Shown here in pieces: positions 10,721 through 56,763 of a stretch of 64,000 nucleotides of DNA (positions are counted from its first letter, which is position 1; every line of letters begins with the position of its first letter). This DNA comes from Candidatus Magnetocorallium paracelense (GTDB lineage: Bacteria > Nitrospirota > Thermodesulfovibrionia > Thermodesulfovibrionales > Magnetobacteriaceae): the NCBI GenBank assembly GCA_029001845.1, contig JAREWP010000077.1:62001-126000 (forward strand), in the 5' to 3' direction. Under the pieces are notes generated by a model. That model saw only the letters and a program-made list of their open reading frames with translations. It was not told the origin of the DNA and searched no databases. The position numbers and the translations under genes are program-made.

Positions 10721-10890
10721 TAAGTATCCTTCGGGCTGTCAGTTTTCATGGTTATAACGGGCGACACCGAATTTTTATTAAGTCTAATAATATCAGAAAA
10801 ATAAAAAAAACTCAATAAATAATGTATTATTTTCAAAAATCGCACGTGAATGTTTCATATTTTGCACCTCTATATTTATAATCTTACAGA

Positions 10891-11024
10891 CAATACCATT
10901 CACTTAAGGGGTGAAGCACCTTCCGACGGAAGCGGGTCATGTTTGAGAAGGCGCAGAGAAGCGGCGCCTTCGAGTTTAGCCGGTGAAGGCGGATGGTGCT
11001 TCACCCCTTAAGTGAATGACATTG
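10891..11024 (-). repeat. Repeat C, copy 2 (inverted orientation)
   Basis: Reverse complement of copies 1 and 3. At both ends AACTTAAG is replaced by CACTTAAG and its partner CTTAAGTG, so pairing is kept despite the change. The rest of 10721-11085 is AT-rich with no recognised gene. Confidence 0.85.
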
Positions 11025-11085
11025 ATCTTACAGTGGTTATCCGATTTTACAGGGTTGAACCTAAAAATTACAGTGAGAATATTTT

Positions 11086-16260: not shown

Positions 16261-16394
16261 AATGTCATTAACTTAAGGAGCAAAGCACCTTCCGCCTTCA
16301 TCGGCTAAACTCGAAGGCTCCGCTTCGCTGCGCCTTCTCAAACATGACCCGCTTCTGTCGGAAGGTGCTCCACCCCTTAAGTTAATGGTATTGA
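16261..16394 (+). repeat. Repeat C, copy 3
   Basis: Nearly identical to copy 1 (1438-1572). Its right end TTAATGGTATTGA runs into the gspD leader and contains an in-frame ATG at 16385 for that gene. Confidence 0.85.
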
Positions 16395-16438
16395 GGGATA
16401 TTTGTAGAAAGTATAATTGTTGCCCTATACTATTGATT

Positions 16439-36365: not shown

Positions 36366-37130
36366 TTAAATATAAATTGTAAAGAGGAGTAAGAAAAGAA
36401 CCTCTGTAATTTCACCTGTTGCGCCAATATTATCGCCTGTAAGACCGCCGAATTTTTTTTCGAAAAAAGATGTCGAAGCGATAGTACAGAGAGATAATAA
36501 AAACAATAGAGGTATTAATTTTACAATATAAAGAATATAAGACTCAATATAAAAGGTTAAAAAAACTGCAATTATGCTGAATATGGTCGTTTTGAGGAGT
36601 GCGATAGTATCGGTGTGCTCTATAAACATTTTCCCAAGTCCCTTGGAAGCCGCGCTCTTTGCTCTGCTCATGGCTGCAACCATTGCCCAACGACCGATAA
36701 GTCCGAACAATAAAAGCGGTGATATAATCGAAACGCTTAAAAGATTCTTTAGTGCAAGGTATTTCAGTGCGAGTATTGCGATAATTGCAGTAACACCTGC
36801 AGGGCCGGTTGTGCTGTCCTTCATGATCCGCAGCATTTCATCCCTCTCTTTACGGGAGGCCAGGGCGTCGAATGTATCGGCAAGTCCGTCCAGATGAAAT
36901 CCTCCGTTAATCGAAACAGAGAGTAGAATAATGGAGGCCGCCGTTATATCCGCCGGCAAGAGCATCGATAACAAAAGAAAGGAAGCATACAAAAAAAGAC
37001 CCTGAAACAAACCGATCACAGGGAAAAATTGAGCGCTTGCTGCAATATCTCTTTCTGTCGGAGTCTTGTTCTCTTTAAAAGGGAGTGGAATGATTGTTAA
37101 AAAGCGAAAGGCGATTAAAAGCCCGGTCAC
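36366..37130 (-). CDS. cobS: Adenosylcobinamide-GDP ribazoletransferase
   Basis: 254 aa, multi-spanning. FRFLTIIPLP, GGFHLDGLADTFDALASR and MKDSTTGPAGVTAI are the CobS/CobV hallmarks. Joins adenosylcobinamide-GDP with alpha-ribazole (phosphate) at the membrane, the last assembly step of cobalamin. Start overlaps the end of cobT by 4 bp. Confidence 0.95.
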   Translation of the reverse strand: MTGLLIAFRFLTIIPLPFKENKTPTERDIAASAQFFPVIGLFQGLFLYASFLLLSMLLPADITAASIILLSVSINGGFHLDGLADTFDALASRKERDEMLRIMKDSTTGPAGVTAIIAILALKYLALKNLLSVSIISPLLLFGLIGRWAMVAAMSRAKSAASKGLGKMFIEHTDTIALLKTTIFSIIAVFLTFYIESYILYIVKLIPLLFLLSLCTIASTSFFEKKFGGLTGDNIGATGEITEVLFLLLFTIYI

Positions 37131-38191
37131 CTGACACCATCCTTATCGGATACACCGGCTTCGTCGAATGTAGCCATTTCGCTATAAAGCTTTAAAGAGG
37201 CGTCCAGCAGTGTCATGGCAAGTACTGCTCCCGTCCCCTCGCCAAGCCTCAATCCAAGGTCCAGAAGAGGTGTCATCCCCATGTACTTTAAAGCCGCTCT
37301 ATGGCCTCTTTCTTCCGATATATGGGAGGCGAACATATAATCGATAAGTGCGGGGTTCATACAATAGGCAGTCAATGCACCGGCTGTGGATATGAAACCG
37401 TCAATAACAACGGGAAGACGCAGCGATGCCGCTCCAATACATAATCCGGCTATGCCGGCTATCTCAGCGCCTCCTGTTTTAGAAAGAATATCGATCGGAT
37501 CGTTACAGTCAGGGGCGTTTATTGTAATCGCTTCTTCTATTACAGCGATCTTCTTCTCAAGTGCATCCTTTCCGATTCCCGTTCCCCTGCCTGTTGCATC
37601 CCTGACAGAAATTCCGGTAATCAATGACGTAATAGCAGAAGCCGATGTCGTATTGGCGATTCCCATTTCGCCTGCTGCAAACATCTTATAACCGGCTTCA
37701 CCATATTTCTCTGCAAGCTCTATTCCGGCTGTTATGCACTGAACTGTCTCCTCAACAGTCATAGCAGGTTCTTTCTTCATGTTCCTTGTCCCTTTGATCA
37801 CTTTTCTATTCTCAAGACCGTCTATGTTGTGAAAATCATAATTCACTCCAATATCGACGACAATGACATCGACACCGGCATGTTTTGCCAATACGTTTAC
37901 GGCTGCCCCCCCTCTTAAAAAATTAAATACCATCTGAGGAGTCACTTCTCCGGGAAATGCGCTTACTCCCTCTTCAGCCACTCCGTGATCGCCGGCAAAG
38001 GTAATAACCGCTTTTTCTGGAATTTCAGGAATGTCTGATTCATATATTGTGACAAGTTTGGCAGCAAGTTCCTCGAGCATACCGAGACTTCCTCCGGGTT
38101 TGGTAAGAGTGTTCAGCCTGGCCTGAGCCACATCCCGCCACCTCTTGTCAGTTCCTTTAATACTTTTTAATTTTTGCTTTATAATATTCAT
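37127..38191 (-). CDS. cobT: Nicotinate-nucleotide--DMB phosphoribosyltransferase
   Basis: 354 aa. RLNTLTKPGGSLGMLEELA, FAGDHGVAEEGVSAFPGEVT, GEMGIANTTSASAI and the catalytic Glu in LGLRLGEGTGAVLAM are all present. Makes alpha-ribazole phosphate for the lower ligand of B12. Middle of the cobU-cobT-cobS unit, with 4-bp overlaps on both sides. Confidence 0.96.
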   Translation of the reverse strand: MNIIKQKLKSIKGTDKRWRDVAQARLNTLTKPGGSLGMLEELAAKLVTIYESDIPEIPEKAVITFAGDHGVAEEGVSAFPGEVTPQMVFNFLRGGAAVNVLAKHAGVDVIVVDIGVNYDFHNIDGLENRKVIKGTRNMKKEPAMTVEETVQCITAGIELAEKYGEAGYKMFAAGEMGIANTTSASAITSLITGISVRDATGRGTGIGKDALEKKIAVIEEAITINAPDCNDPIDILSKTGGAEIAGIAGLCIGAASLRLPVVIDGFISTAGALTAYCMNPALIDYMFASHISEERGHRAALKYMGMTPLLDLGLRLGEGTGAVLAMTLLDASLKLYSEMATFDEAGVSDKDGVR

Positions 38192-38691
38192 TTTATTCTC
38201 ATTGGGATTCCTGCGACAACCATATAGACCTCATCGGCAACAAAGGCCACTTTCTGATTCATGATCCCTGACATGTCTCTGAATTTTCTTGCCAGAGGGT
38301 TGTCCGGAACGATTCCCATACCTGTTTCGTTTGACACGATAAAGATGGGGGATTTGATATTTTCCAGGGTAGAAGTTAACTTCTCAATCTCCCCTTCAAT
38401 GTTCGCTTCGTTTTGAAACATGTTAGAGAGCCACAGCGTGAGACAGTCAAGAAGGATAACATCATATCGCCCTGACAACTCTTTTATTAAAGGAGCTATT
38501 TCAACAGGCTCTTCAAATGTATCCCACTTGCCGCTTCGCTCCTTTTTATGCTTATCTATGCGTTCTTTCATCTCGTCATCCAATGCCGTGGCAGTGGCGA
38601 TATAAGCCCTCTCTCCTTTAAAGCTCACAGCGTTCTTTTCAGCAAACCCGCTCTTCCCGCTCCTTGCGCCTCCTATAATAAATGTAATCAA
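38188..38691 (-). CDS. cobU: Adenosylcobinamide kinase / guanylyltransferase
   Basis: 167 aa. P-loop GGARSGKSGFAEK, the GMP-accepting His in DKHKKERSGKWDTFEEP, and VSNETGMGIVPDNPLARKFR. Phosphorylates cobinamide and forms its GDP derivative. First gene of cobUTS. I looked for a cobalamin riboswitch in 38692-39000 on this strand and found none. Confidence 0.95.
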   Translation of the reverse strand: MITFIIGGARSGKSGFAEKNAVSFKGERAYIATATALDDEMKERIDKHKKERSGKWDTFEEPVEIAPLIKELSGRYDVILLDCLTLWLSNMFQNEANIEGEIEKLTSTLENIKSPIFIVSNETGMGIVPDNPLARKFRDMSGIMNQKVAFVADEVYMVVAGIPMRIK

Positions 38692-51207: not shown

Positions 51208-51358
51208 CTCAATTGTGGGCCGGATGACATAAGAGGCTTGCATTGTAGATTTGATTTTGTGTAAATTACATGTAAATAATAAACTGCGCGCTCATTATAG
51301 TTTTTGATGATAGCGAGGGGTAATGGCTATAAAACCCGAGAATGGAGGAGGTTTATTT

Positions 51359-53968
51359 ATGACATTTTTAGAGAAACTCAAATTTAGAAACAAATTGCTT
51401 TTAATGCTTCTCGTTCCTATTGCAGGACTGCTCTATTTCTCAATAGGCGGGATAATGGAGAAAACGAGGCTCTCCAGCGAGATGAGTTCAATTACGCCGC
51501 TGGCGGAGCTTGCCGTAAAAATCAGTGCGCTCGTTCATGAGACTCAAAAAGAGAGGGGAGCGACAGCCGGATTTTTAGGCAGTAAGGGCGCTAAGTTTTC
51601 TTCGGAGCTAAAAACACAAAGAAGCAATACCGATGGCAGGGTAAAAGAGTTAAATGTTTTTCTAAAAGGCTTTGAGGCGGATATTTACGGAGGAAATTTT
51701 AAACGTAATTTAAACGCTTCCATGCAGATGCTGACCGGTATAGATGACAAGAGGGCCGGTGTGAGCGCTTTTAAGCTTACCACCAAAGAAGCGATCGGAT
51801 ACTACACTAACATGAATGCCTCCTTTCTCGATGTAATTAACAATATAACGAAATTGAGCACAAACGCAGAAATCACGACACTCGCCACGGCCTATGTCAA
51901 TTTTCTGCAAGGCAAAGAGAGAGCCGGGATTGAGAGAGCCGTATTAAGCAATACATTTGCCTTAAATAAGTTCGCACCCGGAATGTTCAATAAATTCAGT
52001 TTTTTGGTGGCTGCTCAAAAGATATATAACAGCGTTTATACTTCCCTTGCCAATGATGAGCAAAGGGAGTTCTTTAACAGAAAGATGGCTGATCCCTCGG
52101 TAAAAGAAGTAACCAAAATGGAAGACATCGCCTTTGATAAAGGAGCAGCAAGCGAGAGATTTTTACTCACCGCCATACTCTATGAAAATATGGGTTATGG
52201 AGGCGCCATTCATCAGTTTAAGAACTATGTACTGCGCTATCAATCAAAATACGTCGACAGGTTTAATAAGAGATATGACACAATCATCGAGACCATAGAA
52301 AAATATAAGTCTCTAAGCGGAGTCGACGAGAACAGTAAAAAAAATCTCTCCACCATCAGGGAGACCATAGACAAGTATAAAAATGCCATAACAACAGCTA
52401 CCAATATGATAAATAAGAATCATACGATCAGGGAAATTGACGGAGTCATAAAAATCGATGACTCTCCGGCTATTAAGGCTCTAAACGAACTGGCTTCTTC
52501 AAGCGTGGGCAATTTCGGAGTGGATGCAACATACTGGTTTTCTACAATAACAAAAAAGATTAACCTTCTTAAGGAAGTGGAGGACAAATTGTCGGCGGAT
52601 TTGGTGAACAGCGCCAATGAGCTGAAAAGGCAAGCCGACGGTGCGAAAATTTTGTATATTGCTTTGACGTGCATCATTATATTGATGTCCGCCTTTTTGT
52701 CTTTTCTAATCGGTATGGGCATATTAAGACAAATGGGTGGCGAGCCCGCCGTAATTGTCGATTTGGCGGAGAAGGTAGCCGGAGGCGACCTGACAGTGAA
52801 GATTGAAGACAGCGGAATGAAGATTACGGGATTGTATGCTGCGATGAAAGATATGCTCGACAGGTTGAGTGATGTTGTGACAAATATCAATTTCGCATCA
52901 GAGAATGTGACTTCCGGAAGCAGCGAGATCAGCTCGAGCGCCCAGACGCTGTCGGAAGGCGCCACTGAGCAGGCTGCCGCCGCTGAGGAAGCATCATCGT
53001 CCATGGAGCAAATGACTTCCAATATAAGGCAAAATGCAGATAACGCCAAGCAGACTGAGCAGATCGCATCGAAGTCGGCCAGTGATGCAAAAGAAGGCGG
53101 AGAGGCTGTGTCAGAGGCCGTTAATGCCATGAAACAGATAGCAGAGAAGATTTCCATTATCGAGGAGATTGCCAGACAGACCAATCTCCTTGCCCTAAAT
53201 GCAGCCATCGAAGCGGCCCGCGCCGGTGAGCATGGAAAAGGGTTCGCCGTTGTGGCCTCTGAAGTAAGAAAGCTTGCAGAGCGGAGCCAGCAGGCCGCCG
53301 GAGAGATCAGCGGTCTTTCGACGTCGAGCGTAGAGGTGGCTGAAAAAGCCGGAACGATGCTGTCCAAGCTTGTACCGGACATTCAGAAAACAGCAGAACT
53401 TGTGCAGGAGATATCTGCTGCCAGTGAAGAGCAGAATTCCGGCGCCGAGCAGATCAATAAGGCGATCCAGCAATTGGATATGGTTATCCAGCGGAATGCG
53501 TCATCTTCCGAGGAACTGGCCTCTACGTCGGAGGAGCTCTCCTCACAGGCGCGACAACTGGAGGATACGATTGGATTTTTTAAAATAGATCACAATCTCA
53601 TAGGGCATCAGGGCGGCGGAGCAGGAATCAATTTCTCTACAATCCGGTTTAAGCATCTTCAGTGGAAATCCAAATTGAGGGATTTTCTTGACGGCAAAGA
53701 GGCTCTGACAGAGGCTGAAGCCGTATCTCATCAGGACTGCGCTCTTGGTAAGTGGTATTACGGCGAAGGTCTTGAAAGGTTTGGTGATATTGCGGAAATG
53801 AAGAAAATGGAAAAACCTCATGCCGAACTCCATACGGCTGTTAAAGAGATTGTAAACCTCAAAAACGCCGGTAATATTCAGGCTGCGGAAAAGGAGTTTA
53901 AAAAGATCGAACCTCTGTCTCATAAAATTGTCGATCTTCTGAATGTAATCGAGAAAAAAGTCGCGTAA
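51359..53968 (+). CDS. MCP with NIT sensor and C-terminal CZB domain
   Basis: 869 aa. ATG 51359 with GGAGGAGG upstream is preferred over the in-frame ATG at 51323. TM1 at about 11-31, then a NIT (nitrate/nitrite sensing) domain with the family motif [19 protein letters not shown]2 at about 432-454, a signalling domain with [20 protein letters not shown], and a CZB zinc-binding domain ([35 protein letters not shown]) known to sense zinc or oxidants. An anion-and-redox sensing chemoreceptor is a reasonable inference. Confidence 0.93.
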
Positions 53969-54078
53969 CGTCGTTGAAACTTTCAATCCCGCCAGGGTGA
54001 TTCCTCATGAAGCGGGATAGCGAAATACTTATAAATAAACGTTAACGTATAAGAATTTCAAAGAAATTCCTTTTAAGT

Positions 54079-54104
54079 CTCCTCTCCCCTCAAGGGGAGA
54101 GGGA
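54079..54104. repeat. Short palindrome CTCTCCCCT/AGGGGAGAG
   Basis: A 9-bp perfect stem around CA, 110 bases after the MCP stop. A related palindrome CCCTCTCCCCCTTTGAAGGG with GGAGAGGG lies at 54488-54515. Likely interspersed repeats; no T-run follows. Confidence 0.5.
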
Positions 54105-54153
54105 GTAAAAGAAAAGTTACTGCTTTAGCAGCTTAACGTGATTGTTCTGTTAA

Positions 54154-54350
54154 CGGACGGATCTGTGGAAGAGGGGTGAAAAAACCCCGCTGCCCCGCAG
54201 CCGTAATGGGAACGAAAGCCCGATAAGCCACTGGAAGAGTAGACTTACGATTGTTAATCATGTTTTTATAACTAACAATCGTAGATCACAGCTCTCCGGG
54301 AAGGCGGGTAAGTAGGCTGCCCTGAGCCTGAATACCAATCTGTCCGATAA
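54154..54350 (+). promoter_or_regulatory. Cobalamin riboswitch (orphan)
   Basis: P1 pairs CGGACGGAT with ATCTGTCCG. Conserved core: GAAGAGGGGTGAAAAAACCC, GCTGCCCCGCAGCCGTAA, GCCACTGG, a long P7-like arm (ACGATTGTTA/TAACAATCGT), GGGAAGGCG and GAGCCTGAATACC. These match the adenosylcobalamin/cobalamin aptamer in order and spacing. The next gene is only a 16-codon frame, and the next real gene (dnaK) is 500 bp away, so the original target seems to be lost. Confidence 0.88.
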
Positions 54351-54351
54351 A

Positions 54352-54373
54352 TCCTCGAGAGAGGTGAAAACAT
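54352..54373 (+). promoter_or_regulatory. RBS-sequestering hairpin of the cobalamin riboswitch
   Basis: CCTC-GAGA-GAGG is a 4-bp stem with a GNRA-type loop; its 3' arm is the Shine-Dalgarno GAGGTG of the ATG at 54372. This is a plausible translational expression platform just after P1. Confidence 0.5.
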
Positions 54374-54422
54374 GAAGATTGCAATATTCCTGCTAAAATT
54401 CTTCAAATTGTTTCCCACTTAA
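54372..54422 (+). pseudogene. 16-codon frame behind the riboswitch, possible gene remnant
   Basis: MKIAIFLLKFFKLFPT then stop, with a good RBS. The hydrophobic start looks like the first residues of a signal peptide or membrane protein, the usual class under such riboswitches, cut short by a stop. It could also be a leader peptide. Confidence 0.35.
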
Positions 54423-54540
54423 AGAATCCTGATTTTCTAAACGCCAGAGCAAGTCCAAGTGAAACCGCTAAAACATATTTTCCCCTTACTCCCTCTCCCC
54501 CTTTGAAGGGGGAGAGGGTTGGGTTGAGGGGGTGCGTAGC

Positions 54541-54642
54541 TGTTCAAAACACTTTCACCCTTTAGGTGATGCTCGTTTTTAGCTTGATATCAGTCTTTTC
54601 CTATGCTGAAGGCTGACCGCTGATAGCTGACTGCTGTTTTTA
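54541..54642 (-). repeat. Repeat A, copy 7
   Basis: TTCAAAACACTTTCACCC, AGGTGATGCTC and GGCTGACCGCTGATAGCTGA match copies 1 and 4, with small differences in the inner hairpin. Confidence 0.75.
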
Positions 54643-54671
54643 GTTAAAATACTTAATGTGTTTCCTGATTA

Positions 54672-54715
54672 GGCCATTATGGCCGGACAGTTACATGAAT
54701 TGGGTCGAAATGACC
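54672..54715. promoter_or_regulatory. Two dyads, candidate enhancer-binding sites upstream of dnaK
   Basis: GGCCATTATGGCC (54672-54684) and GGTC-N5-GACC (54703-54715) lie about 70-110 bp upstream of the sigma-54-like promoter at 54781, the usual place for activator sites. Assigned by symmetry and position only. Confidence 0.35.
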
Positions 54716-54780
54716 ATAATCAATACAATTCGTTTTGCCTATACCAGAGAAAAGCCTTGAAAATAAAGGGTCTGTATGTC

Positions 54781-54796
54781 TGGCACAATCTTTGCT
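54781..54796 (+). promoter_or_regulatory. Near-consensus sigma-54 promoter of dnaK
   Basis: TGGCACAATCTTTGCT fits TGGCAC-N5-TTGCW exactly, with GG and GC 10 bases apart. Predicted start near 54807, 43 nt before the dnaK ATG. Confidence 0.65.
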
Positions 54797-54849
54797 ATTA
54801 CTGTAGATTAAAATTTTGAAATAACAAGTACATAATCAGGAGGAATAAA

Positions 54850-56763
54850 ATGGGAAAGGCAATAGGAATAGATCTTGGCACTACAAATTCCGTAGTCGCC
54901 GTAATTCAGGGTAAGGAACAGGTTATCATCCCCAATCAAGAGGGAAATCGGACAACACCGTCCGTTATAGCGATTACGGATAAAGGCGAGAGGTTGGTTG
55001 GTCAGATAGCAAAAAGACAGGCCGTTACAAACCCGGAAAGCACCATATTTTCCGTTAAAAGGCTGATGGGCAGGAAATTTGATTCCGATGAGGTAAAAGA
55101 CGCCATACAAAAACTTCCTTATAAGATCGTTAAAGCTGCAAACGGCGACGCCCATGTGGAGATCAGAGGAAAAACCTACTCACCGCCTGAAATATCGGCA
55201 ATGATATTGCAAAAGCTGAAGCAGTCGGCAGAGGACTATCTCGGTGAACCTGTGGAAGATGCGGTTATAACCGTTCCCGCCTATTTTGATGACAGTCAGA
55301 GACAGGCCACTAAGGACGCCGGTAAGATAGCAGGTCTCAATGTATTAAGGATCATAAACGAACCGACAGCCGCCTCTTTGGCCTATGGAACGGATAAAAA
55401 GAGAGATGAAAAGATAGCTGTCTACGACCTTGGCGGAGGAACCTTTGATATCTCTATTTTAGAGATAGGAGAAGGAATCGTCGAAGTTAAATCCACAAAT
55501 GGAGATACATACCTCGGCGGAGACGACCTTGATTTAAAAATAATGGATTGGCTTGTAGATGAGTTTAAAAGGGACAACGGCGTTGATTTAAAGGGCGATA
55601 AAATGGCTCTTCAACGATTGAAAGAAGCTTCCGAAAAGGCTAAGATAGAGGTTTCAAGCTCAACGGAAACAGAGATTAATCTGCCCTTTATAACAGCAGA
55701 CGCCTCCGGGCCAAAACATCTTCTTGTAAAATTAAGCAGAGCAAAATTCGAGCAACTGGTTGATGATCTGATAAAGGGTTCCGTGAAGCCCTGCGGACTT
55801 GCACTTAAAGACGCCGGAATGTCTCAATCGGATATAAACGAAGTGCTTCTTGTAGGAGGATCGACAAGGAGCCCTCTTGTACAGAATACAGTGAAAGAGT
55901 TCTTTAACAAAGAACCGAATCGTTCTGTAAATCCCGATGAAGTCGTTGCAATGGGTGCGGCTATTCAGGCAGCCGTGATTAAGGGCGATGTCGATGACGT
56001 ATTGCTTCTTGATGTTACGCCTTTGTCACTGGGCATCGAAACACTTGGCGGCGTGTTTACGAAACTGATCGAAAGAAACACTACCATACCGGCCAAAAAG
56101 AGTCAGGTCTTCTCTACTGCTTCTGACAACCAACCGGCGGTTGGCATAATGGTGTTTCAGGGAGAGAGGGAGATGGCCTCGGACAATAAGCTTTTGGGGA
56201 GATTCGAGCTTGTAGGCATACCGCCTGCCCCAAGAGGAATGCCTCAAATAGAAGTGACCTTTGATATAGACGCTAACGGAATACTCCATGTATCGGCCAA
56301 GGACCTGGGAACCGGGAAAGAACAGTCCATAAAGATTACTGCATCGAGTGGTTTGTCTGAAGAGGAAATTGAAAAAATGGTTAATGAGGCGGAGTCTCAT
56401 TCCGAAGAGGATAAAAAGAGAAAGCGTATGGCTGAGGTGAAAAACGAGGCCGACAGTCTTGTGTATACAGTGGAGAAGTCTCTGAAAGAGCATGGAGATA
56501 AGATATCTGAAAGCGAAAAACAAGAGATAGAAACAGCCCTTGAGAGATGTAAAAAACTCAAAGACAGCACAACCGATCCTGAAGAGCTCAATAAAGCCAA
56601 CCAGGCATTGGCGACGGCATCTTACAAATTTGCAGAACATATGTATAAAGAAGCAGGTCAACACCAGACTCCCGGAGGGAGCGAGAATCCTTCCGGTAAC
56701 GACAGTCATCAAGGCGACACTGACGAGGATGTCGTGGAAGCGGAGTTTGAGGATGTGAAATAG
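54850..56763 (+). CDS. dnaK: Chaperone DnaK (Hsp70)
   Basis: 637 aa, full length. [52 protein letters not shown] and [13 protein letters not shown] of the ATPase; [14 protein letters not shown] at the linker; the substrate domain and a C-terminal lid ending in [17 protein letters not shown] precedes the ATG. Neither grpE nor dnaJ is adjacent, unlike many genomes, and the promoter looks sigma-54-dependent. The small J-domain protein at 2958-3290 is the only J protein in the window. Confidence 0.98.

Follow-up and report, generated by a model that had tools for sequence, protein, structure and literature searches.

The Shine-Dalgarno-masking type of cobalamin riboswitch (RF00174), represented by E. 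coli btuB, combines an aptamer, a B12 box and a hairpin over the Shine-Dalgarno sequence (SD), and it was demonstrated for btuB that AdoCbl triggers Rho-dependent termination (PMC11162775). In M. tuberculosis, the B12 riboswitch of ppe2 masks the SD of an upstream ORF (uPPE2), whose translation the downstream gene requires, by way of reinitiation at an AUGA overlap (PMC11260477). The pe20 Mbox of the same species involves a conserved small uORF and Rho-dependent termination, and a paralogue of this uORF is found elsewhere (PMC12810186). Additionally, the Listeria B12 riboswitches of Rli55 and AspocR act on RNAs (PMC8079631).

The riboswitch considered here lies in a 64-kb stretch of DNA (the window, i.e. 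the whole stretch analysed) from a genome of 6.0 Mb in 103 contigs, and its features are collected in Table 1. It shares the aptamer, the B12 box and the hairpin over the SD with the btuB type; however, the masked SD is that of a 16-codon leader ORF, and no regulated gene follows. The masking of the SD of a short ORF upstream of a gene is also the layout of ppe2, although ppe2 has a stop/start overlap (AUGA), whereas in the type described here a separate SD, about 30-115 nt beyond the short ORF, serves the genes. By this analogy, the leader ORF most likely relays the riboswitch signal as in ppe2. The ATGA overlap of uPPE2-PPE2 recurs in genus g6 of the window's family, where the leader stop overlaps the cbiK start at four loci (L024, L025, L027 and L029). 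The pe20 Mbox is alike in having a translational platform that covers a small, conserved ORF, with a paralogue of this ORF elsewhere in the genome; in contrast, its aptamer senses magnesium and its paralogue has no riboswitch, while the paralogue found here has one. On balance, the window unit is probably a duplicated B12-responsive leader of a cbiK operon that was cut off from its genes by rearrangement at repeats, the leader relaying the signal in the intact loci.

Table 1. Features of the riboswitch locus and of the neighbouring genes in the window
Feature	Position	Strand	Remarks
cobS, cobT, cobU	36366..38691	-	Pfam CobS, DBI_PRT, CobU
Chemoreceptor gene NIT-MCP-CZB, upstream	51323..53968	+	ends 173 nt before the riboswitch
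Dispersed repeat R1	54053..54140	+	abuts the riboswitch 5' end; several other genome copies, right edge ...GCAGCTTAACNTGA
Cobalamin riboswitch aptamer (RF00174)	54142..54357	+	cmscan 56.7 bits, gathering 31.5
P1 5' strand CGGACGGAT	54154..54162	+	9/9 pairs with 54338-54346
B12 box AGCCTGAATACC	54325..54336	+	kept, one unusual base at 54329
P1 3' strand ATCTGTCCG	54338..54346	+	9/9 pairs with 54154-54162
SD-masking hairpin CCTC-GAGA-GAGG	54353..54364	+	CCTC 54353-54356, GAGG 54361-54364
SD GAGGTG of the leader ORF	54361..54366	+	
16-codon leader ORF MKIAIFLLKFFKLFPT, then stop	54372..54422	+	ATG 54372, TAA 54420-54422
Inverted partial R1 copy	54453..54536	-	downstream of the leader
Dispersed repeat R2	54542..54655	+	about 30 or more genome copies
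Second dnaK paralogue, next gene downstream	54850..56763	+	HSP70; 427 nt after the leader stop

The window aptamer is a member of a known family: RF00174 was the sole Rfam match in the window, with an E-value of 2.1e-11 and the full model (1-189) covered in the covariance search. The score stood well above the gathering threshold and all P1 pairs were present, which bears out the original prediction of a well-kept aptamer; that prediction placed the start at 54154, where P1 begins, and the Rfam match sets in 12 nt earlier. The riboswitch region folds far more strongly than shuffled sequences (z -4.4), and both the binding of cobalamin and the direction of control are predicted from the sequence. 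P1 is fully paired in the window though several pairs differ on both sides in comparison with the two other copies of this genome, C15 and C28; the strands are CGGACGGAU/AUCUGUCCG in the window versus CAGAUGGAU/AUUUAUCUG in C15, where the covariance model misplaced P1 and the stem was paired by hand. By the author's count, the window aptamer has 9 non-standard pairs versus 9-12 in the other copies examined, which indicates that it is not decayed.

These observations bear on the possibility that the unit, with the same origin as in the preferred reading, is a fully dead relic, untranscribed and drifting. This would be in line with the base at 54329 of the B12 box, which is T (U) in the window and G or A in the other copies examined, with the position of R1, which occupies the site where C15 has TATAAT, and with the fact that no sigma-70-like site was found upstream of the window riboswitch. 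However, we hold such a relic to be rather unlikely, given the compensatory P1 differences relative to C15 and C28, a number of mismatches no higher than in other copies, the intact leader frame and SD, and possible read-through from the chemoreceptor gene. An intact P1 together with an open leader could mean that the window copy still serves something.

As originally proposed, the hairpin hides the SD of the ATG at 54372, and relatives carry the same masking element, CCTCGAGNGAGGTG. The SD of a short ORF sits inside the expression platform in the window (54361-54422) and at 17 loci overall. No U-run hairpin was found right after the window aptamer, and terminator-type control was rejected on this ground, unlike what applies to the other riboswitch type of the family. 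This second type, with a GC hairpin and a T-run (L009-L012, L014, L017-L020, L026 and L032), precedes a gene of ~433 aa resembling a ThiC/BzaF relative (by reading only). The suggestion that the RNA acts in trans or by transcript ending was not borne out, as nothing was found that points to a trans role or a terminator. A trans-acting RNA or a B12-dependent 3' UTR of the chemoreceptor mRNA would have a precedent in B12 riboswitches controlling RNAs, such as Listeria Rli55 or AspocR (PMC8079631), and the chemoreceptor gene ends shortly upstream on the same strand; nevertheless, with a platform of the SD-masking type, no antisense gene at the locus and no terminator directly after the aptamer, such a role is very improbable.

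Three RF00174 matches were found in the genome, namely the window, C15 and C28. The C15 aptamer shares 89% identity with that of the window over aligned positions, and it is followed, in this order, by a 16-codon frame (MKIPTFPLRLFTLFPT, then stop) at the same distance as in the window, an 87-aa frame without a Pfam match and cbiK; hence, this copy does precede a cobalamin-related gene (cobaltochelatase). The two leader ORFs agree at 37/51 nt and 10/16 aa (pS 0.60, pN 0.22) and both end in Pro-Thr. The existence of this homologue identifies the window frame as a homologous leader and not as the stump of a gene. Therefore, the designation of the riboswitch as an orphan stands insofar as no cobalamin-related gene follows, but the short frame is not the anomaly it had been taken for, since it represents the normal arrangement at the C15 cbiK locus and in relatives. 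The start region of the leader can pair with its own end (AUGAAGA/UCUUCA) in the window and C15 copies, and part of the sequence conservation between them may thus lie at the RNA level. The BLAST similarity of the two copies covers 54145-54422 and does not extend past the leader stop. Copying-in via RNA was considered, as the similar stretch corresponds approximately to a transcript from its expected start up to the leader stop; it was set aside, because unconstrained flanks could be lost anyway at the divergence of the two copies. The third riboswitch, C28 (L001), keeps the SD-masking hairpin, has ATA at the site of the leader ATG, and is followed by R1 and a PepSY-type gene. The exact window peptide pattern, scanned in 200 class genomes, matched only at the genome's own two loci, which indicates that the peptide sequence as such is not widespread.

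The arrangement itself was found well beyond this genome. A scan of genome_contigs (84,980 species) with a pattern composed of the B12 box, CCTCGAGNGAGGTG and ATG returned 12 loci, 10 in records named Nitrospirae, Thermodesulfovibrio or Bacterium BMS3Bbin09 and the other 2 in records named Syntrophobacterales or Deltaproteobacteria. At 2 of the 10 Nitrospirae-type loci the riboswitch leads straight into a TonB-receptor-like gene, and a short ORF comes first at the other 8 and at both Syntrophobacterales/Deltaproteobacteria loci; these ORFs include MLLSDFRIFSFYPP, MLLPVFNVFSFFPP, MLPFFSLFYFIPP, MLLSVFSLFSIIPP, MKFLPYIFYPLIHF, MVFLSLFPANFVFP and MYCIPCSSHLLIPL, plus longer ones. By a second route, through CbiK relatives in 229 class genomes, riboswitch loci with the same arrangement were recovered, and five related genomes have 16-codon leaders, all PP-ended (MKMVLSAFGVFPHNPP to MKTALSSSGILPYDPP). 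Within the same order and class, hydrophobic frames of 13-16 codons occupy the leader site before cbiK or a porin-like gene, which has its own SD ~30-115 nt further on. The recurrence of the riboswitch-SD-short ORF unit in relatives indicates that the direct output of the riboswitch is the leader ORF, and relatives thus present the short frame together with a gene. The rule is not absolute, since in L099, a genome of the family, the frame at the leader site is just six codons long. One further riboswitch, at a contig end (L124, genome G152), precedes a 23-codon leader, and the ~450 nt remaining on the contig contain no long frame; it is possibly a second orphan, in a different family.

The leader frames evolve like coding sequence. 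Over six independent pairs, pooled pS was 0.37 and pooled pN 0.16 (Fisher p 0.0019), and pN remained below pS when the window pair was left out (p 0.013). In total nucleotide identity, the leader does not exceed the spacer that follows it, so that the signal lies in the pattern of changes. With ten leader groups without obvious mutual similarity, defined by eye, as the basis of both statistics, a length of 13-16 codons was found in 7/10 groups (1.1 expected from shuffled sequence, P 1.5e-5) and a proline within the last two codons in 8/10 (2.6 expected from codon permutation, P 3e-4). In leaders that retain PP, the proline codons vary (CCC/CCT/CCG, then CCA/CCG). The length, proline and pN/pS results speak for selection acting either on the peptide or on its length, and stalling is not implied by them. 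C exceeds G in 16/17 leaders, an excess that is compatible with Rho loading and proves nothing.

Leader sequences differ widely between groups, having in common only the length, the hydrophobicity and the proline end. This matters for the proposal that the 16-residue peptide is itself a useful product, a small hydrophobic protein made at low B12, to which we assign little probability. Two diverged copies retain the frame and the leaders evolve in a coding-like manner, as such a product would predict; on the other hand, the restriction of the common features to length, hydrophobicity and proline end is more in keeping with a ribosome relay than with a product that folds or binds, and the C28 copy has no ATG. 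As for the earlier idea that the short peptide is the product, the frame is a conserved leader and not a chance product.

Leader peptides of the TnaC type stall the ribosome at a proline before the stop codon. The leaders described here are likewise short and hydrophobic, with a proline near the stop in many members, although the likeness is by resemblance only and stalling, like any ligand for it, is putative in this case. No description of proline-ending leaders with a separate downstream SD was found in the open-licence papers searched, and the new part is this family of proline-ending leader ORFs, set apart by the separate downstream SD and the proline-rich ends. A broader and speculative proposal, to which we lend limited credence, is that in Thermodesulfovibrio-related Nitrospirota B12 riboswitches gate hydrophobic leaders of 13-16 codons that would stall or slow ribosomes at a proline-rich stop and thereby shield the mRNA from Rho, giving a two-step control, first by cobalamin and then by termination speed, of an operon for cobalt chelatase and cobalamin uptake, with the window unit perhaps acting as a stand-alone peptide source.

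The separation of the leader from its genes can be followed by comparison with JdFR-85 (L062), in which the riboswitch, the leader, cbiK, PepSY, an ABC ATPase, an ABC permease, btuC-/btuD-/btuF-like genes and cob genes form one run (gene names beyond cbiK being from sequence reading only). In the window's genome, a run of this type is distributed over at least three places, with cbiK in C15, PepSY in C28 and the ABC and BtuC-like genes in C99. The C15 cbiK and the C28 PepSY each have a riboswitch, with R1 between the C28 riboswitch and PepSY, and the C99 ABC genes, whose ATPase showed 66% identity in the JdFR-85 comparison, have no RF00174 match. A 183-nt repeat, 93% identical, stands where the PepSY locus ends (L001 reverse complement 2796-2977) and again just before the ABC genes (L157 1233-1414); with the same repeat on both sides, it is taken to mark an operon break point. 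An integrase-like frame (2-925 of L157, in C99) and a likely tRNA gene (~1040-1125) adjoin the ABC/BtuC-like genes, suggesting, by sequence reading only, an integration site beside them. Copies of a repeat also present upstream of the C28 riboswitch, ~90% identical, were observed in the window at 1422-1590, 10874-11032 and 16263-16402.

No coding remnant was found between 54423 and the dnaK start at 54850. A decayed gene after the leader was rejected by tblastn, in which 165 translated frames taken from riboswitch loci were compared with 53961-54900 and the matches were confined to repeats and to the aptamer in antisense. Among the three options offered originally, loss of the target has the best support, given the split operon and the repeats at its breaks. 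According to the preferred reading of a detached cbiK-operon leader, in the intact loci the hairpin would hide the SD of the short leader ORF when cobalamin is bound, whereas without cobalamin the leader ORF would be translated and the downstream genes, with their own SD, expressed. Leader translation probably avoids Rho-dependent termination or mRNA decay, possibly aided by slow termination at the proline-rich leader end. The window locus retains both sensor and relay ORF, while the genes would have been separated at dispersed repeats, leaving the 16-residue peptide as the sole translated output. The relay step, as well as the order and mechanism of the duplication and break-up events, we infer from these comparisons.

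With regard to the neighbouring genes, cobS, cobT and cobU have no riboswitch by Rfam, as had been stated. The second dnaK is ~79% identical to the dnaK of C23, which has grpE-like and dnaJ-like neighbours, and two dnaK copies were found in only one other family genome (G006). Control of this second dnaK, and perhaps of the moxR-type genes behind it, by read-through from the riboswitch and leader would be favored by its being the next gene, on the same strand and with its own SD as in the relay loci, and removal of the inverted R1 and of R2 would shorten the leader-dnaK gap from 427 to ~230 nt. Nevertheless, the actual gap is longer than in intact loci (about 30-115 nt) and contains two repeat hairpins, no riboswitch precedes dnaK in family genomes among the matches read, and we know of no link between dnaK and cobalamin, making such control improbable. 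Synteny with relatives was also considered and rejected, as dnaK does not lie in front of the moxR-type gene in family genomes.

Taken as a whole, this genome illustrates how a vitamin operon was split, with dispersed repeats where it broke, and the orphan becomes readable from its paralogue. When the first frame is too short to be annotated, riboswitches may be called orphan or be mis-assigned, although such a frame can itself be what the riboswitch targets first and, as in this case, be shared across genera. The proline-ending leaders provide a cheap, testable model of riboswitch control that would operate via the behaviour of the ribosome instead of the SD of the gene itself.
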